A stretch of DNA of 64,000 nucleotides, taken from assembly GCF_018860505.1 (NCBI RefSeq), contig NZ_JAHKPU010000030.1, positions 62,001-126,000 on the forward strand. The letters run 5' to 3'. Origin of the DNA: Pacificibacter marinus (GTDB lineage: Bacteria > Pseudomonadota > Alphaproteobacteria > Rhodobacterales > Rhodobacteraceae). The notes under the pieces are model-generated. The model was not told the origin of the DNA. It saw only the letters and a list, made by a program, of their open reading frames with translations, and searched no databases. Positions 1 to 38,941 of the stretch are shown here, piece by piece (positions within the stretch are counted from its first letter, which is position 1; each line of letters opens with the position of its first letter). Position numbers and translations under genes: made by a program.

Positions 1-83
1 ACAAAGGCTAACCTTTCAACAATAATGATCTTTCACTGAATCGTCTCGCATCCTCCTAAATTGAATTTGTATCGAAGTAGCTA

Positions 84-1952
84 ATGACTGATCATATTTA
101 TAAATCTCCTCGACCCAAACCCCGTGAAACTCTTATATCCTTTCTATCACGGCTATCAGCGTCAAAAAGAGCAAGTGCGAAAGACTTTGCCTATGACATG
201 GGCGGGTCCTTCAAACGAATTCTGAACCTTGACGAGGAGGCGTTGTCCCTGCTTTGCCAGTGGGGCAATCTTTCCAACTCAGATTTGAACGAACTTCTGT
301 CGTGGACCGGTGAAGGCGTCGGTAACATCCGGATGCGGTTTCGCGGAGAGATCTTTGTCTCGCGGGCCTTGAGAAATCCAGTAATCCGAGGTTGTCCTGT
401 CTGCCTTAGGGAAGATGTTCAAACCTATGGGATAAGCCCTCTCGAAGCGATGGCAATGCGGGGCGATTGGTTGCTGCGGGAGGTGGTTATTTGTGTCAAA
501 CACGAACATCCTCTAGTGCCCCTCTGGCGGGCTGACAAGGTCACGGACCGGGACGACATCGGCGCACGCCTGATGGAAATCTTAGACGAAATTTTAAAAG
601 GTGGGTTTGACCGACCGAAAGAGAAAGCTTCGCCATATGACATATGGCTGGATGGGCGACTAGAGGACGGTCGGGATTCTACATGGTTGGTGGACCATTC
701 CCTTTATGCAGCGTCAACATTTTGCCGGCTCCTGGGTGCGGCCATGCTGGACTTAACAATAGCCGATATTTCAAATAACGCACGCAATCTACGGACTGCC
801 CAAGCGGAAGGATTCGAGATCGCAAGACAAGGAACACCACAAATTCGTGCTGCGCTAGATGCCCTTGTAGAACGAGCAACTGGAGTTCAGGATGGGCAGA
901 GAAAGGTCTTTGGTCAGCTGTTCGTAAAACTAAGCCAAGATTATCTGGAAGAAGATACTTTTGCGATATTTCGTAAGTGCTTGCGTGATTGCATCCTCGC
1001 GAACTGGCCGATTAGTCGCGGCGAAATTGTGCTTGGAGAACTCGTTCCAGAACGCCTACTGCATTCCCTGCATACAGCTGCGAAAGAAACTGGGGTAGGC
1101 TTCAAAGTTATAAATCAGTTCCTAACAGAAGCAGGTGCTTTTGAGGACGACGACCGACGGGCGCCAAGTAAAAAGACTTTCGACGCCGGGCGGTATGCTA
1201 CTCTTCTAGAAGAAATTCCGACATTGGTAGGTCCAATTGAGATGCAAACGTCCATGGGCGCAACCAGAGCAGAGTTCACTACACTTGAACGGGACGGTGT
1301 CCTTGCCCCCCGGACCCAAGTGTCAACGGTCAAATCGCCTTGGCGTTTGTCAGATGGATGCGCGCTGATTGAGGAACTTCAGTCTTTTGCAATTGGTGAA
1401 GTTATGGATGATTTACACTGGGAGAGTATCCAACAGTCCAGCAAACGAACCGGTAAGACTGTCGGCATGATTATTTCAGAAATCCGATCTAAAAATATCC
1501 AAGTCAGGCTCAAGAACAATATTCCTGGCTATCACGGAATTTGGATTCACAAGAGCGATGCGGGCAGCAGCCGCAGGTTGATGCTTGAGATGTCAGGCGA
1601 GTATACAACATCTCTTCGCGACACCATTTCGGCGTATGCTTTTGCGCGGTCAATAGGTTTAAGGGACAGAGGACTATTCAGGGCGTTCCTTGAAGAAGGG
1701 CACAGCCCGTCAATTCGAGTTCATAACCCCCGCAGCCAGTGTTCTCAGCTCCGGTTGACCGAGGACAATATTGCCACTTTCCATCGAAACTTCGTGACAT
1801 TGAATACGCTTCAGGCTGAACTGGGGTTACACCGAAATACGATCTTCAGACGCTTAAAAGCTATTGGTGTCCCACAGTTCGCATTTAATGGTAAAAAATT
1901 TGGAGCAATCTGGTCGCGCCATACGATCTCGCCATTGTTCAAAGATGTCTGA
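84..1952 (+). CDS. TniQ/TnsD-like transposon target-selection protein
   Basis: A 622-residue protein with the zinc-binding signature of the TniQ family: Cys104, Cys107, Cys137 and His140 around a conserved Trp129, followed by a leucine-rich stretch. TniQ/TnsD proteins bind a target DNA site and bring in the TnsC/TniB ATPase and TnsB/TniA transposase of Tn7- and Tn5053-like elements. The C-terminal part (about 575-600) looks like a helix-turn-helix, which fits site-specific DNA binding. At 622 residues it is closer to TnsD-size than to the short TniQ proteins. No transposase lies in the window; if present it would be to the left. The first 39 bases are open in frame 1 and end in TGA, and could be the tail of the preceding gene. 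Base composition is AT-richer than the core genes downstream, consistent with transfer. The family call is firm; the type of element is inferred. Confidence 0.8.
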   Translation: MTDHIYKSPRPKPRETLISFLSRLSASKRASAKDFAYDMGGSFKRILNLDEEALSLLCQWGNLSNSDLNELLSWTGEGVGNIRMRFRGEIFVSRALRNPVIRGCPVCLREDVQTYGISPLEAMAMRGDWLLREVVICVKHEHPLVPLWRADKVTDRDDIGARLMEILDEILKGGFDRPKEKASPYDIWLDGRLEDGRDSTWLVDHSLYAASTFCRLLGAAMLDLTIADISNNARNLRTAQAEGFEIARQGTPQIRAALDALVERATGVQDGQRKVFGQLFVKLSQDYLEEDTFAIFRKCLRDCILANWPISRGEIVLGELVPERLLHSLHTAAKETGVGFKVINQFLTEAGAFEDDDRRAPSKKTFDAGRYATLLEEIPTLVGPIEMQTSMGATRAEFTTLERDGVLAPRTQVSTVKSPWRLSDGCALIEELQSFAIGEVMDDLHWESIQQSSKRTGKTVGMIISEIRSKNIQVRLKNNIPGYHGIWIHKSDAGSSRRLMLEMSGEYTTSLRDTISAYAFARSIGLRDRGLFRAFLEEGHSPSIRVHNPRSQCSQLRLTEDNIATFHRNFVTLNTLQAELGLHRNTIFRRLKAIGVPQFAFNGKKFGAIWSRHTISPLFKDV

Positions 1953-2186
1953 CGTTTTCTAAAGTTCTCTGCGTATGGATGCAGTAGTCCCACTAATTCG
2001 GACAGTTTGCGGCTTAGCTATGATGTAATCTGGTTGGTTTCATGCTACTCTTTGAGTTAAGTCCACTTCTGATTTTGCTTTGCCGACGAACAACGTGGAG
2101 AACCCTCACCTAATTCTTATATGTAGACCGCTTCTATTCTCGATTTTTGAGATAAGAAATCAGAAGCAGTTAGGAGGGAATTCACC

Positions 2187-2243
2187 ATGAACTTAGACCT
2201 ATGTCTTGAGCTTCGGTCCCGCGAATGCAAGTCTCTCACTTAG
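2187..2243 (+). CDS. Possible 18-residue leader peptide
   Basis: An ATG at 2187 sits 8 bases after a very strong ribosome-binding site (TAGGAGGGA at 2171-2179) and opens a reading frame of 18 codons that stops at 2241-2243. The stop codon directly abuts the AGAGG that should serve as the ribosome-binding site of the following nuclease gene (TTG start at 2254). The layout suggests translational coupling or leader-peptide control of the SbcD-like gene. No codon run pointing to amino-acid attenuation is present. It could instead be chance, with the strong site left from a lost gene. Confidence 0.3.
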   Translation: MNLDLCLELRSRECKSLT

Positions 2244-2253
2244 AGGAATTCCA

Positions 2254-3489
2254 TTGATCCGTTTATTACACACCGCTGATATTCATTTAGATTCTCCATT
2301 AAGCTCCCTCGCGCTCAAGAATGAGGCGTTACGCGAAACAGTGGAAGCGGCCACGCGAGCGACCTTCTCGCGTCTGATCGATTTTGCCATCTCGGAGCAA
2401 GTGCTAGCTTTCCTGATTGCAGGAGATCTTTTTGATGGCAAGCAGCGCAGTGCCCGCACAGCTGCCTTTTTGACAGGCCAATTGGGTCGGCTCAGAGATG
2501 CGAAAATCCGTGTTTTCTACATCAAGGGCAACCATGATGCCGAAAACCCCATCACAGGGGCGATTGACCTGCCTGACAATGTCAAAGTGTTCGATGCTGG
2601 CGGCGGCAACGTGCAACTATCGGAGGATGTTTGGATACATGGCGTCAGCTTTGCAGATCGACATGCTCCGGAGAGTCTTCTTCCGAGATTTCCTAAACCT
2701 GTGTCAGGTGCCGTCAACATTGCCATGATGCACAGTTCGCTCGCCGGAACCTCAGGGCATGATGTATACGCCCCCTGTAGCGTCGCTGATATGGTTGGTA
2801 TGGGTTTCGATTATTGGGCGCTAGGTCACGTCCATAAACGGCAAGTCCATTCAAAAGCGCCATGGATCGTGATGCCTGGTATGCCGCAAGGCCGTGATAT
2901 CGGGGAAGCAGGTCCTAAATCTGCCAGTTTGCTGACGATTGAGAATGGTGAAATCACGGTTGAAGAAGTGCCTACCTCGGTCGTGGAATTTACCCAGACG
3001 TTGCTGGACGTAACAGGGGCAGACAGTGACGATACGTTGCGTAGCATCTTGCGGAATCATCTGGCGGAGGTTCAAACACAGAACACTGCTCCGACTGCCG
3101 TCTTACGTCTGACTCTTACTGGCCGCCCACCACGTTATTGGCAAATCCTGCGCGACAGAGATGTCTGGCAGGAACAGATCAATGACCTCGCGCAGATGGC
3201 CGGGGACCTTTGGATAGATAAACTTGTGTTCGATCTAGCGGCGCCTGTAGTCGAAACCGCCACGGCCAGTGCGACGGACGAGCTGGCGGCGACCATGTTG
3301 GATATCGTCACTGAGAGAGGTTTTACCTCTGTCGCACGGGCTGAGATTGACACCTTACTCCAAGACTTGCCGGTAGGCGTGCGTGCCCGGCTTATGCCGG
3401 ATGAGGTTGCTGCAGACGCTCTGTCACACCGCTTGGCGAAATCGGGGGCTTACCGCGTTCTTGCACGGATGAAGGGGGTGGAAACCTGA
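2254..3489 (+). CDS. SbcD/YhaO-like metallophosphoesterase, probable DNA nuclease
   Basis: A 411-residue protein of the calcineurin-like phosphoesterase superfamily. All metal-binding blocks are visible in order: DIH near residue 9, GDLFD, GNHD, a lone His in MMHSS, and GHVH. This is the arrangement of SbcD/Mre11 and YhaO nucleases, which cut DNA with two metal ions and work with an SMC-like ATPase partner. That partner follows immediately, the stop and start codons sharing one base (TGATG). The start chosen is TTG at 2254 because AGAGG lies 7 bases upstream and the family normally begins right at the IRLLHTADIH strand; a TTG at 2206 gives a 16-residue extension without support. The C-terminal part (from about 300) has no motif I recognise. 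Inferred role: nuclease of a two-subunit DNA repair or defence complex. Confidence 0.85.
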   Translation: MIRLLHTADIHLDSPLSSLALKNEALRETVEAATRATFSRLIDFAISEQVLAFLIAGDLFDGKQRSARTAAFLTGQLGRLRDAKIRVFYIKGNHDAENPITGAIDLPDNVKVFDAGGGNVQLSEDVWIHGVSFADRHAPESLLPRFPKPVSGAVNIAMMHSSLAGTSGHDVYAPCSVADMVGMGFDYWALGHVHKRQVHSKAPWIVMPGMPQGRDIGEAGPKSASLLTIENGEITVEEVPTSVVEFTQTLLDVTGADSDDTLRSILRNHLAEVQTQNTAPTAVLRLTLTGRPPRYWQILRDRDVWQEQINDLAQMAGDLWIDKLVFDLAAPVVETATASATDELAATMLDIVTERGFTSVARAEIDTLLQDLPVGVRARLMPDEVAADALSHRLAKSGAYRVLARMKGVET

Positions 3490-6400
3490 TGCGGATTAAA
3501 GAGCTTTCCCTTGACCGGTTCGGTCATTTCAATGACCGAAAGTTCGACTTTGGAACGTTGAGCGACAGGCCTGATTTTCATATTATTTATGGTCCAAACG
3601 AAGCGGGCAAGACCACAACAATGGAAGCGGTATTACGGCTTTTCTACGGATTTCCGAACAGGGAAGCGTTTGCATTCAAACATCAGCGCAACAACCTGCA
3701 AGTCTCAGCCAAGCTAAACATCGACGGGCAGTTGCGTGATTTTACGCGCCTTCCAAAGCGAAGCGGGGCCTTGGTGGATGCAAATGGCACAGCCCTGCCG
3801 GAGACTGCGCTGTCCGCCCATTTAGCGGGCTTGACCGAAGATGATTATCGCCAACTCCTATGTCTTGATGATGATACGATCGAACGCGGGGGCGAAGAAA
3901 TCGCACAAGCGAAGGGTGATATCGGACGATTGCTATTTTCTGCAGCGGCAGGTGTCGCGGATCTGAGCACGGTTTTGGATGGTGTCCGTGAACAGTCAGA
4001 CGGGATATGGAAGAAACGGGCGAGCAAAACCCGCATTGCGGAGCTGAAACGCGATCTTGCCGATGTAGAGAAAACTATCCGCGAGCGGGATATCTCGGCT
4101 AGCGCTTGGCGGTCCCTGAGAAAGGTGCTGTCAGAAGCGCAGGCGGCAGAGCGTATGGCTCGCGCAGCCCGTGATGCCCTGTTGATGAAAGCTTCCGAAG
4201 TTGACGCGCAGAAACGGGCGATTCCGATGATGGTTGAAGTAAACGGCCTCGAAGCCCAAATCGCTCCTTTTGCGGATTATCCGACGCGGCTGGATTTCGA
4301 TCCGGAACGACTTGTTCAATTGCGCATCGACGATGCGACAACGCGTCTGGAAGTAGAACGTCTAACGGGTGAAATCGACAAACTGTCATCGGCACGCGAT
4401 GGCATCACGCTTGACCCGAAACAGGAAAGTCTCGGCGGCAAACTGGATGCTTTGGAAGAATTGCGCATCCGTGATAGTGCGGCAGATATGGATTTGTCGC
4501 GCCGAGAAGATCAACAACGCAAGGCCGAAGAAGCCATGTCTTTCGCTGCACGCGATCTGGGTGTTCCGCCTAAAACAGACTTTAAATCCCTTGTTTTATC
4601 CCCCGTGGATATCATGCGTCTTGAAACTGCACGGGATGATCTGCGCAAAGCAGGTGATAGCGCGGTCGCAGAAGGCGAAGAGGTCGCGGCTTTGACTGAT
4701 CGCCTAAACGCGGCGCAAGGTGATTACGATGTTCTTTCGGTAAAAGGGGCTGAGACGCCGAATGTAGGTGAAATCCTGTCGCGTTTTGATGTCGACCTCT
4801 TGGCCCCAGCCTTGGCCTCGGCCCGGCAAGCGCTGACCACAGCAGCACAAAGCGCCCGTGCGCATCTGCGTGGGCTGGCCGTGGGGTCTGTTGTGTTTGA
4901 CAGCCTGCCAACCTGCCCCTCCAGCGTGATCAAAGCGCGGGACTGGGCGGAGCAGCATGCGGACCTGCGACATCAAATAATCAAAACAGCTGAGTCAAAG
5001 GCGGAGCATCGGGCGGAGCTGGCGGCGCGCGCAGCACAGGCTAAAGCGCTGACCATCAGCGGCACTCTCGTTTCCGATGCGACGACAGACGCCTTGCAAA
5101 TGGAACGGGACAGCCTCTGGCAAGTGCATGAGGTCAAGTTGACTGGCGATACAGCAAAGACTTTCGCCTCAGCCATGCACGCATTTGATGACGCACTGAA
5201 ATCCCGCGTTGCCCGCGCCAGAGATCTGGGCCAGTTGCGCCAGGTTGAGCAGGCTCGGGCAGAGGCACAGGCCCGCGCCGACCAGGCCGATACCCGTTTG
5301 AACGCGCTCCGCGACGATCTTGTCAAACTTGAGAACAGCGTGGACGCCGCGGCGTCCGGAGTAGGCCTTCCAAAGCCCATCACGCCGAGTGAGTGGCTGG
5401 ACTGGGTCGAACGCCATACCAACGCAACCGATGCAGCAGAAACGCTAATCGCCCTGCAAGAGACCCATCAACCGGTTTTGGATCGGGCGCAAAAGCTGTT
5501 GGATATGCTAAAACCGCGGTTGCCTCTCGAAGACCCAGATTTCGAGGATGCCATTGCCGCCGCGCGCATGTTGGCAAAGGAGGAACGCGAAAGATCGGCT
5601 CAGCGGACCAAAGTGCATGAGGCCTTCAAACATGCAGAAAACGACCTTGCCGAGCGCCAGGGCAAACATCAGGCCGCGATGCAGGCCAAAGCTCAGGCTA
5701 ATGGCGTATGGCAAGACTTGATACAGGATTTGCTGGGAGGTTCCATCGCATCGCACACAATGATGGCCTCGCTCGAACCTCTGCGCAACCTGCGCGAACA
5801 GGAGGAAAGGCGCGCCTCTGCGGCACAGCGTGTCGCAACCATGCAATCGGATCAACGTCGCTTCGCAGCAGAGGTTGTAACACTGGCGGCGACCCATGAG
5901 GTGACGCCGAAAGAGCCAGCAGCCACATGCTTTGAGGCCTTGCGCAGACTGTCGAGCGCAGCACAAGCAGCCCGTGAAAAACATGCTGAGGTGACCCAAT
6001 CCATTGAGGCCGCCCAAGCCAGCCTAAATTCCAATGAAAAAATGCTGGCCGGCATCGTGCAAGAAGTTGCATCCATTGCCGCGATCTTCCCGGAAAGCAC
6101 TCCGGTGGATAGCATCGACGCTATGCGCAGCGCGGCAGGGCAAGCGCAGCAAGTGATCACGGACCGCGCCGAAATCAACAAGCTGGAGCATAGGATATCA
6201 TCAGAGCTGGGTGTTGCGGATATGAATGCAGCTCGTGAGGTGTTGGAGGATTTGACGATTATCAACCTCGAAGCTGCCGGGGAAACCGTCAAATTTGATC
6301 TTGCAACCGCTGAAAACGGTCTCACCAGCGCGACCGAAGCACGTGTGACAGCGGAGCAAGGGCTTGCACAGGTGACAGGCGATGCAGACATCGCAACCTT

Positions 6401-6923
6401 GACCGAACGTAAAACCACGCTTGAATTACAGTTGGAGGAGGCAGCCCTCGAACATCTGGAACTGTCTCTGGGCCATCAGTTGGCCTCTGAGGCCATCCGG
6501 CGGTATCGTGACAGTCACCGAAACGGAATGATGACAGCAACCGAGCGGTGTTTTGCGTCGCTCACGCAGGGCGCTTATCCGAAACTAACAACCTTGCCTG
6601 ATGGGTCTGAGGAAATCTTACTCGCCGTTGATAGAGATGGCGCAACAAAGCGTGCGGCGGATATGTCCAAAGGCACTAGGTTCCAGCTCTATCTTGCGTT
6701 GCGCGCGGCTGCCCACGAGCAGCTGGTCACGCAAGGCACCTGTTTGCCGTTTTTCTGTGACGATATCTTTGAGACATTCGACGAAGAGAGGACCAGCGCG
6801 GCTTGCCGCATCATGGAGGATATTGGTCGGAAGGGGCAGGCGATTTACCTGACGCATCATCGCCATGTCGTCGAAATTGCAATGAAAGTCTGCGATACGC
6901 CACCGATACTACACGAAATATAA
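3489..6923 (+). CDS. SbcC/YhaN-like AAA ATPase with long coiled coil
   Basis: A 1,144-residue SMC/Rad50-type ATPase. The Walker A motif GPNEAGKT is at 35-42. The Walker B acidic pair (Asp1091, Asp1092, in FFCDDIF) is near the C-terminus, so the two ATPase halves are split by about 950 residues rich in Ala, Glu, Arg and Gln with heptad character, which should fold back as a coiled coil. YhaN (about 960 residues in Bacillus) is the closest type I recognise because the N-terminus has the RFGHF and GPNEAGKTT features of that group. I do not see a clear Rad50 zinc hook (CxxC). It is translationally coupled to the upstream nuclease, so the two should form a complex that loads on DNA ends or unusual structures. 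A 64-base gap separates it from the Gabija genes, which it probably shares transcription with. Confidence 0.85.
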   Translation: MRIKELSLDRFGHFNDRKFDFGTLSDRPDFHIIYGPNEAGKTTTMEAVLRLFYGFPNREAFAFKHQRNNLQVSAKLNIDGQLRDFTRLPKRSGALVDANGTALPETALSAHLAGLTEDDYRQLLCLDDDTIERGGEEIAQAKGDIGRLLFSAAAGVADLSTVLDGVREQSDGIWKKRASKTRIAELKRDLADVEKTIRERDISASAWRSLRKVLSEAQAAERMARAARDALLMKASEVDAQKRAIPMMVEVNGLEAQIAPFADYPTRLDFDPERLVQLRIDDATTRLEVERLTGEIDKLSSARDGITLDPKQESLGGKLDALEELRIRDSAADMDLSRREDQQRKAEEAMSFAARDLGVPPKTDFKSLVLSPVDIMRLETARDDLRKAGDSAVAEGEEVAALTDRLNAAQGDYDVLSVKGAETPNVGEILSRFDVDLLAPALASARQALTTAAQSARAHLRGLAVGSVVFDSLPTCPSSVIKARDWAEQHADLRHQIIKTAESKAEHRAELAARAAQAKALTISGTLVSDATTDALQMERDSLWQVHEVKLTGDTAKTFASAMHAFDDALKSRVARARDLGQLRQVEQARAEAQARADQADTRLNALRDDLVKLENSVDAAASGVGLPKPITPSEWLDWVERHTNATDAAETLIALQETHQPVLDRAQKLLDMLKPRLPLEDPDFEDAIAAARMLAKEERERSAQRTKVHEAFKHAENDLAERQGKHQAAMQAKAQANGVWQDLIQDLLGGSIASHTMMASLEPLRNLREQEERRASAAQRVATMQSDQRRFAAEVVTLAATHEVTPKEPAATCFEALRRLSSAAQAAREKHAEVTQSIEAAQASLNSNEKMLAGIVQEVASIAAIFPESTPVDSIDAMRSAAGQAQQVITDRAEINKLEHRISSELGVADMNAAREVLEDLTIINLEAAGETVKFDLATAENGLTSATEARVTAEQGLAQVTGDADIATLTERKTTLELQLEEAALEHLELSLGHQLASEAIRRYRDSHRNGMMTATERCFASLTQGAYPKLTTLPDGSEEILLAVDRDGATKRAADMSKGTRFQLYLALRAAAHEQLVTQGTCLPFFCDDIFETFDEERTSAACRIMEDIGRKGQAIYLTHHRHVVEIAMKVCDTPPILHEI

Positions 6924-6987
6924 TCAATTCTCTTGGAGGTTGTGAGCTCGAGAAAATTACGAAAAAATAGAATTTACGGGGAATTAA

Positions 6988-8928
6988 ATGCACCTAAAGA
7001 AAGTCTTTCTAAAGAATTTCCGGTCTTTTGACACTGGGGAAGTTGGGCTTCAAGAAGATCTAACGATTTTCGTCGGAGAGAATAACGGTGGCAAAAGCAA
7101 TGCGATTGATGCGATACGCCTTTTGACCCAGCCACTTGGGGGACGTCGCGAGATTTATTGCGAACCGACAGACGTGCGCTTCCAAAGCCCTAACGAAGGG
7201 TTCGAACTGGAGACCCTTTTCACTGGCCTAGACGCCGGGCAACAAGGGCGTTTGATAACAGCGGCAACCGATACCAGCATGACTGAAGCAAAGTTTGGGC
7301 TGCGGTTCAGCGGAACGATCGGAGATCGTCCTAGCCTCTGGGCTGGAAAGTTCGGTAACTCGCCAGAACCCGGATGCCACGACATGATCAAGCACGTGTA
7401 TCTACCGCCGCTTCGTGACGCAAAACGGGCCTTGGCCTCTGGCAACCCAACCCGCGTCATGATGCTGCTCAAGCACTTTGTCGATGATCTAGGTGCAGCC
7501 GACCTCGAAGAGAAACTTGCACGCCCCACTTCGCATCCAGTCCTCGACAAGGTTGATGAAGCTGTCTCGCAAGGCTTGTCAGCGCTCACAGGCGGTGTCC
7601 GTCCACAAGCGGCCTCCCTCGGTTTTGCTTCGCAAGGGAATCTGGCCGAAATTGCCCGTGATCTTCGTTTCAAGCTTGCGGATCATGGTATTCTTCCGGA
7701 AGATCTTCGTTACTCGGGACACGGTTACGCCAACCTCCTCTTCATGGCGACGATCGCGGTAGAGCTGGAGAAAGCCCATCGATCGGACTTGACCCTGTTC
7801 TTGGTCGAGGAGCCGGAGGCGCATTTGCATCCGCAGCTGCAGGCTGCTGTTCTGTCCTTCCTGAGTGAACAGGCTGCAAAGTCTCGGAAGAATAAGCCAA
7901 AGCAGGGACCAGCTGGTCAGGTGCAAATAATTGTCGCCAGTCACTCCCCGAATCTTGCGGCTTGGGTTGGTAGCAAGCATCTCGTGGTGTTTAAGTCAGT
8001 CAAAGCGGGGCTATCGACGGTCGAAACATCAGAGGGAAAAAAGTCTCAGAATGTTCCAATGCCGGAAGATTTAGACGGAGGAATAATGGAAACATATTCG
8101 GATGAAGAGGCCGACATATCGGAAGCACCGATGATCGAGGCTCTTTCTCCGTCCCCGATAGCGTTGGCAGAGCGGCGTTCGACACGTTGCATTCCGCTCG
8201 CAGGGATTATTCTTGTCGAAAAGGATCGTCGGAAGATTGATCGCTATCTGGATGTCACCAAGTCAGCGCTTCTGTTTGGCGGTCGAGTGCTGCTCGTTGA
8301 AGGCATCGCCGAAGCGCTGCTCCTTCCGGTCATTGCCAAGCATCACACGCTAAAGGATGATCCCGACAAATTGCAAAAATTCCGTTCGACCGTTTTTTTT
8401 CCGATCGATGGCGTCGATTTTCTACCATACGTTAATTTGCTGACGACACCTATGAACGGCGCGCGGATCGCTGATCGAGTGGTTGTCATGACTGACGGCG
8501 ACAAGGGTAAAGGCCAGAAAAATATCATTGAGACTGAGGTCACCGAAGACAAAGCAAATTCCTCGCTATTGCCAGGCGAGCTACGTAAGGCTGCGGTAGA
8601 CAAACTTGCAGCGAAAAATGGTGCCTCCGATTGCATTGCAGCAATATCGTCAACCTACACTTTGGAAGCGGAGTTGTTGGATGTGGGTAACGCAGAAATT
8701 CTCCGCGAGGCGTTCCTTACTCTTCATACGCGTTCTGAGAAGAAGTGGGACGCTATGGTCAAACTGCAAGGGGACGATCGCGCCAAGGAGCTTGCGAAGG
8801 TCTTCGATACTACACGCAAGGGTGAGTTTGCCCATGTCCTGGCGGATCTAATCGCCTCTAAGGACCCCCACTATCCCTTTACCGTTCCTACTTACATTAA
8901 TCGCGCGATTTTGGCGGTGGTCGAATGA
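6988..8928 (+). CDS. gajA: GajA-like OLD-family ATPase/TOPRIM endonuclease (Gabija)
   Basis: A 646-residue protein with an ABC-type ATPase followed by a TOPRIM nuclease. Walker A is GENNGGKS at 30-37, a signature-like YSGHGYANL precedes Walker B LVEEPEAHLHP (Glu274-Glu275), and the switch His lies in VASHSPN. The TOPRIM domain shows VEGIAE (Glu438) and TDGDKGKG (Asp503, Asp505), the metal ligands. OLD nucleases coupled to a UvrD-like helicase are class 2 OLD proteins, known as GajA of the Gabija anti-phage system, which cuts phage DNA when nucleotide pools fall. It overlaps the helicase gene by ATGA (8925-8928). It is longer than the reference GajA (about 580), with extra acidic, low-complexity sequence between the two domains (roughly 340-405). 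Assignment rests on domain order and gene pairing. Confidence 0.88.
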   Translation: MHLKKVFLKNFRSFDTGEVGLQEDLTIFVGENNGGKSNAIDAIRLLTQPLGGRREIYCEPTDVRFQSPNEGFELETLFTGLDAGQQGRLITAATDTSMTEAKFGLRFSGTIGDRPSLWAGKFGNSPEPGCHDMIKHVYLPPLRDAKRALASGNPTRVMMLLKHFVDDLGAADLEEKLARPTSHPVLDKVDEAVSQGLSALTGGVRPQAASLGFASQGNLAEIARDLRFKLADHGILPEDLRYSGHGYANLLFMATIAVELEKAHRSDLTLFLVEEPEAHLHPQLQAAVLSFLSEQAAKSRKNKPKQGPAGQVQIIVASHSPNLAAWVGSKHLVVFKSVKAGLSTVETSEGKKSQNVPMPEDLDGGIMETYSDEEADISEAPMIEALSPSPIALAERRSTRCIPLAGIILVEKDRRKIDRYLDVTKSALLFGGRVLLVEGIAEALLLPVIAKHHTLKDDPDKLQKFRSTVFFPIDGVDFLPYVNLLTTPMNGARIADRVVVMTDGDKGKGQKNIIETEVTEDKANSSLLPGELRKAAVDKLAAKNGASDCIAAISSTYTLEAELLDVGNAEILREAFLTLHTRSEKKWDAMVKLQGDDRAKELAKVFDTTRKGEFAHVLADLIASKDPHYPFTVPTYINRAILAVVE

Positions 8929-10667
8929 CAACATTGGCCTACGATCCGACGCCTGAGCAGATAGCGATCATCGAACATGAGGGCCATGCATTCGTGCGCG
9001 CTTGCCCAGGTGCTGGAAAAACGAGGACAATGGTTGAACGAGCGAGGGTCATGCGCGCTGACACATCTGATTTACGAAGCGTGGCGTTTTTGTCGTTCAC
9101 AAATGCTGCCGTCGACGAAATGAAAATGCGACTGGCAAAGTTCGGCGCTCTACCAGCCCCAATATTCCCGAATTATATCGGAACCTTTGACGGCTTCCTC
9201 TGGCAATTTCTCATCGGGCCATTTGGTATCGACGGGTGTCCGGAGCCACCTCAGCTTATTCCTGACAAAAAGGATTGGGTCGTCAAACCGCCATACGATG
9301 CTGCCCGAGAGCTGACGCTGGAATGTTTTGACCGCCAGACAGGTGCGCTAATCAAAAACAAAGCCGATAAATTTAAATTCGAACCGAAAAATGGCCCTGG
9401 CGCATGGGAAGAAGTTGCACGCAACATGATTGCCCGATCCCTTGAGAAGGGGCTCTTAGATTTTGAGGATGTGCGGGCAATTGTTAAAGGACGATTGGTG
9501 GACAAAATTTTCGCTGATCGCGCCGCCACAGCGCTCACAGGGCGATTTAAGGAGCTCGTGGTCGACGAGGCACAGGATTGCAATCCAGCGGATTTGGACA
9601 TTATCGACTGGCTTCGCCGATCAGGTCTAACCGTCAAGATAATCTGTGATCCCAATCAAGGAATATATGGTTTTCGCGGCGGTGCGACCAATGAGCTGGA
9701 GGCATTTTCCGCCAAGTTCGACAAAGCCGATCACCTACCAATGAGCGGCAACTTTCGCGCATCGCCGGCAATCTGTTCAGCAATCAGCCAGTTACGCCCT
9801 CCGACGACTCGGGGAGAGTTCGACCGAGCGGTAGGTCGCTACAAGAGCGAGGCGACGCCTGTTCATTTGCTTTCTTATGGCGGACAGGCCGTATCACCCC
9901 ATATTGGACCTGCCTTTCTGGCGTTAACCGACAAGCTCAATCTCGATCGAAAGGAGTTGCGAATCCTCGCCGCTACTTGGTCGAGCGCCAGTAATGGTGC
10001 AGGTCGTCGCACTGTTGACCCTAGAAATAATAAGACGCTGTTGTTGGCACAGGCTGTCATGGGCTTCCATAGCGCCTTCGCGGCCGGCAACCCGCGCCAT
10101 GCGCTCGGCAGCCTTCATCGTGCGGTATTAATGGTTCGGGGCCTGATCGCGACTGCTGGAGACTATGGCACGTATCTTGCTAAGCCCGAGATTGAAGATG
10201 GAGGTTGGCGGCCGGAGATCATTTCGATTGGGCAAGAGCTTCATCCAAATCCTGCAGAAGCAGCTGAACAGTGGCTGACCCGCGCCCGGAATCTTCTTGA
10301 CAAGGATCTCGTTGGTTCCGCCTCGATTGGCACGCGATTAAAGACAAACTCCAATCTTGGCGCACTCCTGTCGACGGTTCAAGTCACTGACCTGCCCGCC
10401 CGCTCCATCCACGATGTGAAAGGTTTGGAATTTCCCGCCGTGTGCGTTGTCTTGTCGCCGCAAACCGCCGGGAAGATTATCGATGTCCTGTCCGGCACAA
10501 ACGCTGGGCAAAAGGAGATCGAGGAAGCGCGCAAAATCTATGTAGCTGCATCCCGCGCTGAACGCCTTCTTGCCATCGCAACGCCTAAAAGCCGCGTCGA
10601 AGAACTCAAGGCAATTTTAGATGCTGGTGGACAGGCTGTCGTAGTTTCGCACGTTCCAACCGATTAG
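8925..10667 (+). CDS. gajB: GajB-like UvrD/Rep-family helicase (Gabija)
   Basis: A 580-residue superfamily 1A helicase. Motifs in order: Walker A ACPGAGKT (26-33), motif Ia around SFTNAAVDEM, motif II DEAQD (214-218), motif III around CDPNQGIYGFRGG, motif IV around GNFRASPAI, motif V HDVKGLEFPAV, and motif VI VAASRAERLL. It is shorter than UvrD or Rep (about 700 residues) but longer than the reference GajB (about 490), as expected for a helicase specialised for a partner. Its start overlaps the nuclease gene by four bases, showing co-translation. In Gabija, GajB is thought to sense DNA ends or single strands produced during infection and to activate GajA. It is the last gene before the island boundary at tRNA-Arg. 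Confidence 0.88.
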   Translation: MTTLAYDPTPEQIAIIEHEGHAFVRACPGAGKTRTMVERARVMRADTSDLRSVAFLSFTNAAVDEMKMRLAKFGALPAPIFPNYIGTFDGFLWQFLIGPFGIDGCPEPPQLIPDKKDWVVKPPYDAARELTLECFDRQTGALIKNKADKFKFEPKNGPGAWEEVARNMIARSLEKGLLDFEDVRAIVKGRLVDKIFADRAATALTGRFKELVVDEAQDCNPADLDIIDWLRRSGLTVKIICDPNQGIYGFRGGATNELEAFSAKFDKADHLPMSGNFRASPAICSAISQLRPPTTRGEFDRAVGRYKSEATPVHLLSYGGQAVSPHIGPAFLALTDKLNLDRKELRILAATWSSASNGAGRRTVDPRNNKTLLLAQAVMGFHSAFAAGNPRHALGSLHRAVLMVRGLIATAGDYGTYLAKPEIEDGGWRPEIISIGQELHPNPAEAAEQWLTRARNLLDKDLVGSASIGTRLKTNSNLGALLSTVQVTDLPARSIHDVKGLEFPAVCVVLSPQTAGKIIDVLSGTNAGQKEIEEARKIYVAASRAERLLAIATPKSRVEELKAILDAGGQAVVVSHVPTD

Positions 10668-10832
10668 AAAGCAGAGGCATCAATAGGAAACCTGTCAAAT
10701 CCGGGAAAACTGCATGCATCTGACAGCTGCAACCGGCTGAGATATGCTACATCTACGGCAATACCATCAATCTAGATTTTGCTTAATCACTACCAATGCA
10801 TCAAGTTCAACGGTCCGTTTCCATAAAAACCA

Positions 10833-10880
10833 ACTTTTGTCGAAAAGTCGGTCTTTCGATGTCGAACGACATCTACAACA
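10833..10880. repeat. Inverted repeats beside tRNA-Arg, possible mobile-element end
   Basis: Two adjacent inverted repeats: ACTTTT-gtcg-AAAAGT (10833-10848) and GATGTCG-aa-CGACATC (10858-10873). Read on the minus strand away from the tRNA, the stretch begins TGTTGTAGATG (from 10880) and contains two related blocks, TTCGACATCGAAAG and TTTCGACAAAAG, as in the repeated transposase sites at Tn7-like ends. It lies 10 bases from the tRNA 3' end. This could be the right end of the island; without the left end that is only inference. A role as tRNA terminator is less likely because no T-run follows. Confidence 0.4.
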
Positions 10881-10890
10881 AATGAAAAAC

Positions 10891-10967
10891 TGGCGATCCC
10901 TTGAGGACTCGAACCTCAAACCTGCTGCTTAGAAGGCAGCTGCTCTATCCAGTTGAGCTAAGGGACC
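10891..10967 (-). tRNA. tRNA-Arg (anticodon TCT)
   Basis: On the minus strand a 77-base cloverleaf begins GGTCCCT and closes with AGGGATC, discriminator G and an encoded CCA (10891-10893). The D arm, the anticodon stem GCTGC/GCAGC with loop CTTCTAA (anticodon at 10931-10933), and a T arm with TTCGAGT are all intact. It decodes AGA. Its 3' end faces the defence island, the usual geometry for integration next to a tRNA gene. Confidence 0.95.
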
Positions 10968-14219: not shown

Positions 14220-15188
14220 CTAATAAACTTCTCTCATGTGCTTAAAGCGTATCTTTCGCTTCAAAGCACCCAAATCAGAAGGGTTGTCCATTTTGTGTAT
14301 CATTCGATGGCAACTGGGGCACAAAACTAAAAAGTCTTCAGGGACTCGATACCTCTTCGCTTCTCCCTCCGCCAATTCAAACAATGGCTTACTATGATGT
14401 ACATCAAGCGGGATTTGTTCAGGCCTGCCATCAAAGCTATAATCAATCTCCGGCATCAATCCGCAGGCTTCACATTTAGGGGGTTTGACAGCCAAAACTG
14501 CTCTACGAACTTTGGATGAACGTTCAATACGTTGTGATAGAACTAGCTTCCTTGTTTCTTCAATTGTTTGTCCTTGCACCTCACTTGCCATTACATCGCT
14601 AGGCGTCAATCCTCCACGGTTTACGAGTACCTCATAGATGTGAAGTATCTCTCGTAAATCCGTTAGGCATTCATCTTCAGAAAGCATGCTAGATGCATAT
14701 CGCTTCCCAAAAGCATGCCCAGCTTCGTAGCCAGCAGGCAAATCTTCGGTTGACCCTAAATCAATGGGATCCCTTGAAAATGATTGAATTAGGTCAGCGA
14801 CACGATCAGACATATCTATAGATCGACGCTTCATAACTTCTCGACCGCGCCGCCTTCCAAATTCTTCATAAACAGCTGTTGTGCCCTGGTTCATTGAAAG
14901 GAAAATCGAGTTATCTTGGGCATTAATCAGATAGACAACATAAAATCCTTTTGTCGCAGTTGTCGTTATCAAAGGATCAAAAAATGCCAACCACGGTACA
15001 GCGGCCCACTGCCCGTTCCCAACACTCGCCTTTAACTCTAAATCAAACGGCCAAAACGACAAATGCCTTTTGGCTTCCTGTACCAAATCCCGCCGAACGA
15101 AATTTCCGAAATCACTATTTGAAAACGGCTTCCCTCGTTCAAAAGCCATTTCGTTGGCAACACGGTTTAACATTTTTGAAAGAGACAT
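14220..15188 (-). CDS. McrB N-terminal domain/HNH endonuclease, putative type IV restriction enzyme
   Basis: A 322-residue two-domain protein. Residues about 30-130 resemble the McrB N-terminal DNA-binding domain (DUF3578): WPFDLELKASVG, PWLAFFDPLIT, GFYVVYLI and SLNQG-like SMNQGTT. The C-terminal 85 residues form a zinc-supported HNH nuclease: CxxC at 239/242, HH at 264-265, CPSCH at 290-294 and a final His near 298. Such fusions are modification-dependent (type IV-like) restriction enzymes that cut foreign methylated DNA; the specificity here is unknown. AAGGAT precedes the start. It is AT-richer than the flanking genes, stands alone, and abuts uvrB tail to tail, so it looks horizontally acquired. 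The nuclease fold is well supported, the modified-base specificity is inferred. Confidence 0.8.
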   Translation of the reverse strand: MSLSKMLNRVANEMAFERGKPFSNSDFGNFVRRDLVQEAKRHLSFWPFDLELKASVGNGQWAAVPWLAFFDPLITTTATKGFYVVYLINAQDNSIFLSMNQGTTAVYEEFGRRRGREVMKRRSIDMSDRVADLIQSFSRDPIDLGSTEDLPAGYEAGHAFGKRYASSMLSEDECLTDLREILHIYEVLVNRGGLTPSDVMASEVQGQTIEETRKLVLSQRIERSSKVRRAVLAVKPPKCEACGLMPEIDYSFDGRPEQIPLDVHHSKPLFELAEGEAKRYRVPEDFLVLCPSCHRMIHKMDNPSDLGALKRKIRFKHMREVY

Positions 15189-36094: not shown

Positions 36095-38941
36095 TTAGTC
36101 AAGTGCTTCAACATAGTTTTCAAGCGGTGGACATTGACAGATCAAATTGCGATCCCCGTGCGCGTTGTCAACACGTCCGACAGGCGGCCAATATTTATCA
36201 ACGCGGAAAGATCCAGGGGGGAAGCAACCTTGTTCGCGGCTGTAAGGCCGATCCCAATCCGCAACCAAATCATTGACCGTATGCGGCGCGAGTTTGAGCG
36301 GATTGTTGTCTTGCGGCAGTTGGCCACTTTCGATCTGAGCGATCTCGGTACGGATCGACAACATCGCCTCGATAAAGCGGTCCAACTCGGCTTTGGTTTC
36401 CGATTCAGTCGGCTCGATCATCAAAGTGCCACCGACAGGCCAAGACATTGTCGGAGCATGGAAGCCACTGTCCATCAAACGCTTGGCTATGTCTTCCACA
36501 GTCACATGCACACTTTCATCAAAGGCACGCGGATCGATAATACATTCATGCGCCACCCGCCCCTGCCTGCCACGGTACAGCACAGGAAAAGCGTCATTCA
36601 AACGGGCCGCGATGTAATTTGCATTCAAGATCGCAACCTTTGTGGCCTGCGTCAGACCTTGCCCGCCCATCAACATACAATAGGCCCATGAAATCGGCAG
36701 AATAGATGCAGAGCCATAAGGGGCCGCAGACACAGGGCCTGTTTCGCCACCGGTTTCAGGATGTCCCGGCAAGAACCGTTCAAGGTGTTTTTTCACCCCG
36801 ATCGGTCCCATGCCCGGACCACCACCGCCATGGGGGATACAAAAGGTTTTATGCAAGTTCAGATGGCTGACATCTGATCCGATCTCACCCGGTTTTGCCA
36901 AGCCAACCATGGCGTTCAAATTCGCACCGTCCAGATAGACCTGCCCGCCAAATTCATGGGTGATGGCGCAGACCTCTTTGACGGTTTCCTCAAACACGCC
37001 ATGGGTTGACGGATAGGTGATCATACAAGCGGACAGGCGATCACCAGCCGCTTCGGCTTTGGCGCGGAAATCGTCGATATCGATATCGCCATTCTCGGCA
37101 GAATTCACCACGACAACCTTCATGCCACACATCTGCGCCGAAGCCGGATTGGTGCCATGCGCGGACATAGGGATCAAGCAGATGTCACGCGCGCCTTGCC
37201 CGTTTGCACGATGATAGGCGGCGATGGCCAAAAGCCCCGCATATTCGCCCTGTGCACCAGAATTGGGCTGCATCGACATCGCGTCATAGCCGGTGATCTC
37301 GCACAGCTTCGCGGACAGATCGTCGATCATTTCCTGATAGCCGATGGATTGATCCACAGGCGCAAAAGGATGGATCGTATTAAACTCAGGCCATGTCACG
37401 GGCATCATTTCAACCGCGGCGTTCAGCTTCATCGTACACGACCCAAGCGGGATCATTGTGCGGTCCAGCGCCAAATCGCGATCTGCCAAACGACGCATAT
37501 AGCGCATCATTTCGCCCTCGGCACGGTTCATGCCAAAGATTGGATGGGTCAGATAGTCCGTGTCACGCACAAGGGTCTCGTCAAAGCCCAATGCCGTAGG
37601 TTCGCTGCCAGCTTCAGCGTCATGGCCAAAGGCACGCCAAACCTTTTCGATGACCTCAACGTCCACCATTTCATCGACAGAAATACCAATGCGATTTTTC
37701 CCAATGGCGCGCAGATTGATGCCTTCGGCCACAGCAGAGCGCAAGATCACCCCCTGCATCGCACCCACATCAACGGTGAAGGTGTCATAGAAATTCTCAG
37801 GTGCAATTTTAAAGCCGGAAGATTTCAGCCCTTCTGCCAAACGCACGGCGTTAAAGTGGATCTGCTCACCAATGGCGCGCAGCCCTTGGGGGCCGTGGAA
37901 GACCGCATAGAACGAGGCCATAACCGCAAGCAGCGCTTGCGCGGTACAGACATTCGAAGTGGCTTTTTCGCGGCGGATATGTTGCTCGCGGGTTTGCAAA
38001 GCCAAACGATATGCCCGCCCGCCATTGGCATCAATCGACACGCCAACAATACGCCCCGGCATGGCGCGTTTCATCGCGTCTTTGCACGACATAAACGCAG
38101 CATGAGGTCCGCCAAACCCGATGGGCACGCCAAACCGCTGCGCGGAACCGACAGCGATATCAGCATCCATCGCACCAGGATCTTTGAGCATCGTCAATGC
38201 CATAAGGTCTGTCGCCAAAATCGCCACAGCTTTGACCGCATGCAGCGCGGCAATATCAGTGCTGAAGTCGCGCAGATCACCATTGGTCCCAGGGTATTGA
38301 TAGATCGCGCCGAAAACCTTGCTTGGATCGATGTCTTTGGGGTCGCCGATGATCACATCAATGTCCAAAGGCGCGGCACGGGTTTTCATCACTTCGATGT
38401 TTTGCGGGTGGCAGTTTTCATCGATGAAAAAGCCCTTGGCTTTGGATTTTGACACGCGCTGCGCCATAGTCATCGCCTCGGCGCAGGCGGTGGCCTCGTC
38501 CAGCAGTGACGCGTTGGCAACGGGCAAGCCCGTCATATCCGACACCATGGTTTGAAAGTTCAACAGCGCTTCCAAACGACCTTGGGCGATTTCGGGCTGG
38601 TAGGGCGTATAGGCCGTGTACCACGCGGGATTTTCCAAGATATTGCGTTGGATCGCGGGCGGGGTCGCGGTGGCGTAATACCCCTGCCCGATCAAAGAGG
38701 TCATGATCTTGTTCTTGCCCGCGACTTTGCGCATCGCGCCCAAAACTTCGTGTTCTGTCATCGGCCCCCAAGAAAGAGGCTCAAGCTGACGGATGTTCAT
38801 AGGCACGGTTTGATCGATCAAACTATCCAAAGAAGAGGCCCCAATCACATCCAACATTTCGCGCATTTCATCAGGCGAAGGGCCAATATGACGGCGGTTG
38901 GCAAAGTCGTATGGATTGTATGTAGACGGAGTGTAGGCCAC
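36095..38941 (-). CDS. gcvP: Glycine dehydrogenase (aminomethyl-transferring), P protein
   Basis: A 948-residue P protein of the glycine cleavage system, a single chain with both halves. It decarboxylates glycine with pyridoxal phosphate and passes the aminomethyl group to the H protein. The cofactor Lys is in [17 protein letters not shown], and [16 protein letters not shown] marks the N-terminal half. Starts with GTG at 38941 with AAGGA 7 bases before; this gives normal length, while the open frame further upstream adds 25 residues without support. Third gene of gcvT-gcvH-gcvP, 87 bases after gcvH. Confidence 0.96.

Follow-up and report, generated by a model that had tools for sequence, protein, structure and literature searches.

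The left part of the analysed DNA, a 64,000-nt window of Pacificibacter marinus (C34:62001-126000 of the 327-kb contig NZ_JAHKPU010000030.1, here called C34; window position 1 is C34:62001), is very probably occupied by the right-hand portion of a transposon. This element, named E2, is held with high confidence to be a 33.9-kb Tn7-like transposon which carries TnsA, TnsB, TnsC and a TniQ protein of TnsD size and which lies behind tRNA-Arg(TCT), inside the end of an older element, E1. Its ends, target site duplication (TSD) and site, the order of arrival and the intact tRNA gene were shown. What appeared to be a loose defence cluster can thus be described as a transposon of known limits, for which the ends, the TSD, a junction lacking E2 and the full set of genes are at hand, and its homing to tRNA-Arg is directly testable.

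Limits and genes of E2

The contig was read left of the window over C34:4201-62000 and a self-comparison was run over C34:4201-126000. The latter gave an inverted match between C34:38996-39022 and C34:72871-72845, identical at 26 of 27 bp (E=3e-4), with its right-hand copy at window 10845-10871 on the minus strand, reading TGTCGTTCGACATCGAAAGACCGACTT inward. A scan for TG-starting inverted ends flanked by a perfect 5-bp duplication gave this pair a terminal inverted repeat (TIR) score of 24/25 with the TSD TCTAC (left copy C34:38991-38995, right copy window 10872-10876), while the remaining two listed pairs with a TSD match reached 9 and 7. On the basis of the inverted match, TIR and TSD, E2 was therefore placed at C34:38996-72871 (33,876 bp), with window 1-10871 representing its right part. 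Two 20-bp putative TnsB sites with a spacing of 21 bp are located inside the left terminus.

These limits were further examined by excising E2 in silico with TCTAC kept once and comparing the product against the tRNA-Arg loci of three congeners. The junction was found in the genome of a sister species (G303, whose identity to the window is 95% over query positions 280-688) as a gap-free match of 173/180 (96%) spanning both the join and the tRNA. The other two junction loci (L107 and L116) aligned at 83-84% with small gaps.

The tRNA-Arg(TCT) gene predicted by ARAGORN (window 10891-10967, minus strand) is an intact attachment gene with its 3' end towards the island. The preliminary description of this stretch had proposed a Tn7-like element beside this gene, which is borne out by the TIR, the TSD and the E2-free junction in G303, and it had advised a search for a matching inverted end at the left boundary, which was found for the true terminus at C34:38996-39022. 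Its limits needed correction, however. The unit does not start at window position 84, since E2 begins 23 kb left of the window, and the island does not end 10 bp from the tRNA, as the right terminus at 10871 leaves a gap of 19 bp (10872-10890). The sequence TGTTGTAGATG, previously given as the element end, was rejected as a terminus, as in the direction away from the tRNA it is composed of one flank base, the E1 stump TGTAGA and the opening bases of the true terminus TGTCGTTCGACATC. It was misread because this stump, TCTACA on the plus strand, lies between E2 and the tRNA.

The transposition genes had been expected outside the window on the left and were found there as an operon on the minus strand (C34:39215-43247), 219 bp from the left end, with TnsA (C34:42459-43247) and TnsB (C34:40225-42477) as separate open reading frames (ORFs) followed by TnsC (C34:39215-40225). 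They are not within about 10 kb of the window but 18.8-22.8 kb left of its start, so that the lack of a transposase within 10 kb, which had been named as grounds for refutation, would have wrongly told against the element. The TnsCs of both E1 and E2 match Pfam TniB and AAA_22 over cut-off. TnsB of E2 was without a Pfam match. A profile of five family TnsBs, by which it was assigned, matches Tn6677 TnsB (E=2e-24), the PseTnsAB fusion (E=1e-24) and V-K TnsB (E=8e-16), and residues D344, D401 and E442 are invariant across the five sequences. TnsA of E2 was assigned by its position and by 21% identity to TnsA of E1, the latter having a TnsA_N Pfam score of 23.2 bits (cut-off 26.5) and a TnsA-like NCBIfam match below cut-off. 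Single-sequence PDB searches with TniQ and TnsC of E2 gave no match.

Within the window, the gene and tRNA calls agree with the earlier account of a TniQ followed by two nuclease/ATPase-type pairs on one strand. The TnsD-like target selector TniQ (84-1952, plus strand, 622 aa) matches Pfam TniQ (PF06527) over cut-off at 67.6 bits and has a core with C104/C107/C137/H140, after which come winged-helix-like repeats. Its predicted structural model matches TniQ and TnsD folds in addition to containing these repeats. The first cargo pair, also on the plus strand, comprises a SbcD/Mre11-like metallophosphoesterase (2206-3489; Pfam Metallophos, NCBIfam SbcD/Mre11 below cut-off) and an overlapping SMC-like AAA_27 ATPase of 1144 aa (3489-6923; Pfam AAA_27, 214.8 bits). 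With PADLOC the phosphoesterase was without a match and the ATPase had partial matches of at most 27.9 bits, and by sequence the pair is classed as an unclassified SbcC/SbcD-like (Mre11/Rad50-like) pair. The second pair consists of GajA, the OLD-like ATPase/TOPRIM nuclease of Gabija (6988-8928, plus strand; PADLOC E=2.5e-279), and GajB, its UvrD-like helicase (8925-10667, plus strand; PADLOC E=1e-219). As the two are adjacent and both matches are full length, this is a Gabija system.

Further cargo of E2 includes a TPR protein, an inositol-monophosphatase-family protein, a glycerophosphodiester phosphodiesterase (GDPD), an ABC transporter, a ROK regulator, a GFA-family protein, an HNH nuclease, an IMS_C fragment and HipA. 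The earlier suggestion of anti-phage cargo holds for Gabija, but with the ABC transporter, GDPD, ROK, GFA, HNH and HipA genes the cargo as a whole is mixed. It is only partly defensive, and the term defence island fits the right third of E2 alone. Beyond E2, directly past uvrB, an MrcB_N-domain protein with a weak type IV restriction match is encoded on the minus strand (window 14220-15188).

Older elements behind the same tRNA

The site had been taken to hold a single element. Instead, it holds E2, E1 and the right end of a third element, E0. With E2 removed, a further Tn7-like end pair is seen with a TIR of 18/25 and the TSD ACAAA (left copy C34:7150-7154, right copy window 10878-10882), the next-best pair scoring 8. 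This delimits E1, an element of 31.8 kb with its left end at C34:7155 (TGTGGATAGACCATAAG) and a right end which reads TGTAGATGGGGCATAAG inward. E1 encodes its own TnsABC (C34:7363-11467) and TniQ (C34:14985-16859), has cargo between TniQ and its right end, and carries a Gabija system (C34:34246-38156) that is best matched by other PADLOC models than the Gabija of the window. The TSD of E2 falls within the last 6 bp of the right end of E1. As a result these bases (window 10872-10877, minus strand; TGTAGA inward) form a stump severed from E1 by E2, with the outermost base of E1 now situated beyond E2. Within the gap between E2 and the tRNA, this stump and the TSD of E1 together occupy window 10872-10882.

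E1 and E2 have unlike end types. E1 adjoins the right end of E0, and in the self-comparison the right ends of E0 and E1 are 96.6% identical over 320 bp. The left end of E0, where a TSD of AAAAC is predicted, was not found before the contig start. Because of the nesting, the order of arrival reads as E0, then E1, then E2. Counted by hand, the distances of the three ends from the tRNA are 16 bp for E0, 13 bp for E1 and 19 bp for E2.

A number of other features were observed in these elements. Direct repeats of 49 bp (90%; C34:34144-34192 and 38284-38332, corresponding to window coordinates -27856 and -23716) closely flank the Gabija of E1, resembling a cassette that may be swapped by recombination. 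Inverted repeats common to E1 and E2 (C34:28034-28161/59497-59370, 91%, and C34:31745-31899/57437-57283, 95%) are perhaps small mobile repeats. A gene for a 474-aa protein, closely similar by eye, is present in both E0 (C34:1563-2987) and E1 (C34:26538-27962) as shared cargo. Two other TniQ matches are present in the own genome: the first, at C34:15009, is 47 kb to the left of the window, and the second, on contig C2, is a weak remnant. At G000:C2:43477-44011 (L003, L008), a TniQ fragment interrupted by one stop lies about 260 bp beyond a tRNA-Arg(ACG) gene, whose orientation it shares. After this fragment comes a different end-like sequence, possibly the remnant of a third end type.

A second stack was seen in Pseudodonghicola xiamenensis (L014, L219), in which a frame-broken TniQ and an E2-type right end (by eye) are immediately succeeded by a complete element of 12.7 kb that has E1-type ends (22/25), the TSD CAATA and its own TnsABC and TniQ, with tRNA-Arg(TCT) 19 bp away. 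As with E2 in E1, the newer TSD falls on the final bases of the older end, but here the order is reversed, with the older element of E2 type and the newer of E1 type. In Jannaschia formosa, one locus (L018) has TniQ followed by an end-like sequence and TnsC, while another (L019) has TniQ beside tRNA-Arg(CCT), the contigs being unjoined. Among the readable stack junctions, the TSD of the newcomer overlaps the terminal bases of the resident in two of three; in the remaining case E1 landed 3 bp outside the end of E0.

TniQ relatives and their targets

A relative of the E2 TniQ (E<=1e-20) was found in 34 of 295 genomes of the family, the own genome included; 20 genomes of the genus were also covered by the analysis. 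These gave 43 matches, for which 30 loci were fetched. One of these was the window's own locus, and the 29 others were analysed, as were 12 named loci. In 22 of the 29 loci the protein has at least 30% best-segment identity to the TniQ of E1 or E2, and in 15 of these 22 a convergent tRNA 3' end lies within 400 bp, compared to none of the seven loci below 30% identity. The same holds for 7/12 named loci. The chance expectation is about 0.2% per locus by our own reckoning, based on 32 tRNA matches in the 3.65 Mb of the own genome. The tRNAs beside relatives are Arg(TCT), Arg(CCT), Met(CAT) and Gln(TTG). In further relatives the abutting gene is nrdJ (L132 and L142 by profile; L135, L137 and L143 by eye) or, in the case of one protein present in two records, recN (L017 by profile; L140 is the same DNA as far as printed).

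The distance between element end and tRNA was determined in 28 chosen loci with a tRNA beside TniQ or a recognisable end, with L107, L108, L115 and second copies left out. Termini were assigned by motif in 25 of these, L013, L033 and L037 being without assignment, and for 24 of the 25 the distance is 10-21 bp (median 14). In the exception (L019, 42 bp) the motif fell on an inner repeat. A TG start is present in 17/19 termini placed by the inner E1-type motif and in 5/6 found by an E2-type terminus match. Both end types, E1-like (GCATAAG..TGCAC) and E2-like (TGTCGTTCGACATC), occur at Arg(TCT) as well as at Arg(CCT). A further complete end pair (24/25, TSD ACAAC) belongs to a sister nrdJ element. 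For the elements of G193 and G215, TnsABC was not found when the E1 and E2 queries were run against some 57 kb upstream of the respective TniQ.

On a TniQ tree of 35 rows, with unknown counted as a label, the target labels require 13 changes against 21.6 when shuffled, and none of 200 shuffles was as low. One protein (L031) has an E2-type end although it falls within a well-supported clade of TniQs with otherwise E1-type or unassigned ends; its right end alone is known. This suggests that selectors and transposases have been re-paired. Among the 29 own-genome tRNA genes read (32 matches, 30 loci fetched), Arg(CCT) is nearest to Arg(TCT), with 34/45 in the 3' part, while Met and Gln are not near, so that similarity between tRNAs explains the switches among Arg targets only.

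It should also be noted that E1-type right ends abut tRNA-Arg(TCT) in L107 (G295, by eye), L110 (G303) and L116 (G260) with no TniQ in the fetched flank, and these may be elements with a distant TniQ or remnants. The same tRNA gene is also the site of islands of about 8 kb in G306 (L113:7642-15595) and G305 (L114) with a tRNA 3' duplication of 45-48 bp, making it one attachment gene for two unrelated insertion mechanisms. By eye, the nrdJ 3' ends of L135, L142 and L143, though not that of L132, have a core resembling TTCGA or TTAGA some 31-35 bp away from the end of the element, and the T-arm core of the tRNA is about 42 bp from the end of E2, so a recognition word could possibly be shared between them.

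Interpretation and comparison with known systems

It is suspected that TniQ would bind the tRNA gene via its C-terminal winged-helix-like repeats and recruit TnsC, which would bring TnsA and TnsB with the paired ends, the right end then being joined at a near-fixed distance from the tRNA (10-21 bp in relatives). Recognition of the tRNA gene by TniQ is suggested by their association across relatives. A newcomer would land between the tRNA and the resident, as all elements of the family would measure from the same tRNA, and the stack would grow with the youngest element nearest the tRNA. With this ruler shared, landing on the last bases of the resident would need no extra mechanism, and such a landing would probably disable the resident's right end. 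The cargo, namely Gabija, the Mre11/Rad50-like pair and the transport and metabolic genes, would be carried along.

Several observations weigh against this account or limit it. The chromosome left of the stack lies beyond the contig edge. The element side of the G303 junction matches the end of E1 over its last 66 bp only (97%); G303 carries an E1-type end at the same place, but with a match of this length its owner may be another E1-type element and not E1. No native flank on the 3' side of the tRNA that is common to the genus was found, only stretches common to some congeners, and a site wholly free of the stack could therefore not be demonstrated. TnsA of E2 gave no match in Pfam, NCBIfam or PDB profile searches. 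Seven of the 22 close relatives are without a tRNA within 400 bp; two of these (L038, L039) abut nrdJ, and TniQ is followed by a 455-aa ORF in L022, by a transposase-like ORF (by eye) in L041 and by a tRNA-Arg(CCT) fragment (by eye) in L035, while L034 and L036 are unexplained. Three of the seven end pairs scanned (G067, G094 and G262, the last with a left region of 82 bp) showed no convincing TIR and TSD, and in G300 the repeats are present with the TSD shifted by one base (by eye). Arg(CCT) is scattered over the TniQ tree, with 6 changes against 5.6 when shuffled; together with the overall clustering of labels, this indicates that targets are partly inherited, yet often switched. Finally, the TniQ of E2 lies 8.9 kb from the right end, while that of tRNA-adjacent relatives lies 100-350 bp from the tRNA.

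The last point could be explained if the Gabija/SbcCD-like block (2206-10667) had entered separately, either within or beside an element whose end formerly lay just after TniQ, making the present boundaries secondary. This is considered unlikely, given that no end-like motif (<=3 mismatches) is present between TniQ and the block, that the block lies within the TIR and TSD boundaries, and that cargo after TniQ is also seen in E1 and, as the 455-aa ORF, in L022. More doubtful still is a Tn7-like element in which TniQ is an adaptor only and another factor, either a CRISPR guide or an additional DNA-binding protein, directs insertion. TniQ proteins are described as adaptors in CRISPR-associated transposon (CAST) systems (PMC11406308), and TnsF is described as used with TniQ in Tn6022-type elements (PMC10293859). 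However, the self-comparison contained no repeat array and no Cas family was present among the scanned ORFs, which were part of all ORFs, although the PADLOC TniQ model is itself labelled Cas-associated. A TniQ of 622 aa with predicted winged-helix-like repeats has the architecture given for protein-guided TnsD (PMC10293859), and targets track TniQ relatedness better than shuffles do.

An ordinary tRNA genomic island, integrated by a tyrosine recombinase at the 3' end of tRNA-Arg with TniQ merely as cargo, is hardly credible for E2. Such an island does have a precedent in the congener G306, in which a 48-bp copy of the tRNA 3' end is situated 7.9 kb from the same tRNA-Arg(TCT), beside a 395-aa phage-type integrase, and a similar 45-bp copy is present in G305. 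For E2 this origin was rejected on the lack of a duplicated tRNA 3' end, as the longest exact repeat of the tRNA or its flank in C34:4201-126000 measures 13 bp. No integrase was noticed on reading the E2 ORF lists, the profile scans having covered part of the ORFs, and E2 instead has TIRs, a 5-bp TSD, DDE transposase genes and the E2-free junction.

Beyond E2 as a homing Tn7-like transposon, a broader proposal is put forward tentatively, as one that may well prove wrong. Rhodobacterales tRNA genes, above all tRNA-Arg(TCT), might act as docking ports at which Tn7-like lineages with unlike ends, different transposases and interchangeable tRNA-reading TniQs stack. Newcomers would land at or on the terminal bases of a resident, could split its right end and fix it as genomic cargo, and successive defence systems, here two different Gabijas, would accumulate. 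That the like-ended E0 and E1 are neighbours suggests that target immunity is weak or absent. The stack itself preserves a record of arrival order and illustrates a route by which defence islands could expand behind tRNA genes with no integrase involved. The TniQ set, with targets at tRNA-Arg (TCT and CCT), Met, Gln, nrdJ and recN, offers a natural series for how TniQ reads and changes its target, and such switching bears on programmable insertion.

Tn7 homes to glmS by means of TnsABC and TnsD, produces a 5-bp TSD and inserts downstream of a conserved gene that is left intact. E2 resembles it in its separate TnsA, TnsB and TnsC, its TnsD/TniQ-type selector, its ends with repeated putative TnsB sites, its 5-bp TSD and its insertion downstream of an intact conserved gene. 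It differs in that its target is a tRNA gene, in that TnsABC is located at the tRNA-distal end with TniQ encoded apart and nearer the tRNA, and in that two unlike end types are found at one site with the elements stacked. Gabija is a frequent cargo of Tn7-like elements, with 338 transposons in one published table (PMC8649781), and no difference was seen in E2, in which GajA and GajB are full length and adjacent.

TnsD-mediated homing to tRNA genes is known, chiefly from the cyanobacterial I-B2 and I-D CASTs, and tRNAs are mentioned as sites for diverse Tn7-like elements (PMC11406308, PMC10293859, PMC8649781). The I-B2 and I-D lineages have a fused TnsAB and CRISPR-Cas (PMC11406308), and CyCAST is described as inserting 30-33 nt downstream of a tRNA gene (PMC10293859). 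No description of the present Rhodobacterales group was found in the literature searched, supplements aside, which is no proof of absence. In common with these CASTs, a large TniQ/TnsD appears to home to a tRNA here and insertion is a short distance downstream. In contrast to them, TnsA and TnsB are encoded separately, a CRISPR array was not seen, the ends lie 10-21 bp from the tRNA, the hosts of the named loci are of Rhodobacterales type in 11/12 (the other being Martelella), and the targets are Arg, Met and Gln tRNAs together with nrdJ and recN. Tn7-like elements that home to tRNA genes are thus already known; it was less to be expected that targets switch within a single TniQ family and that unlike elements form stacks.

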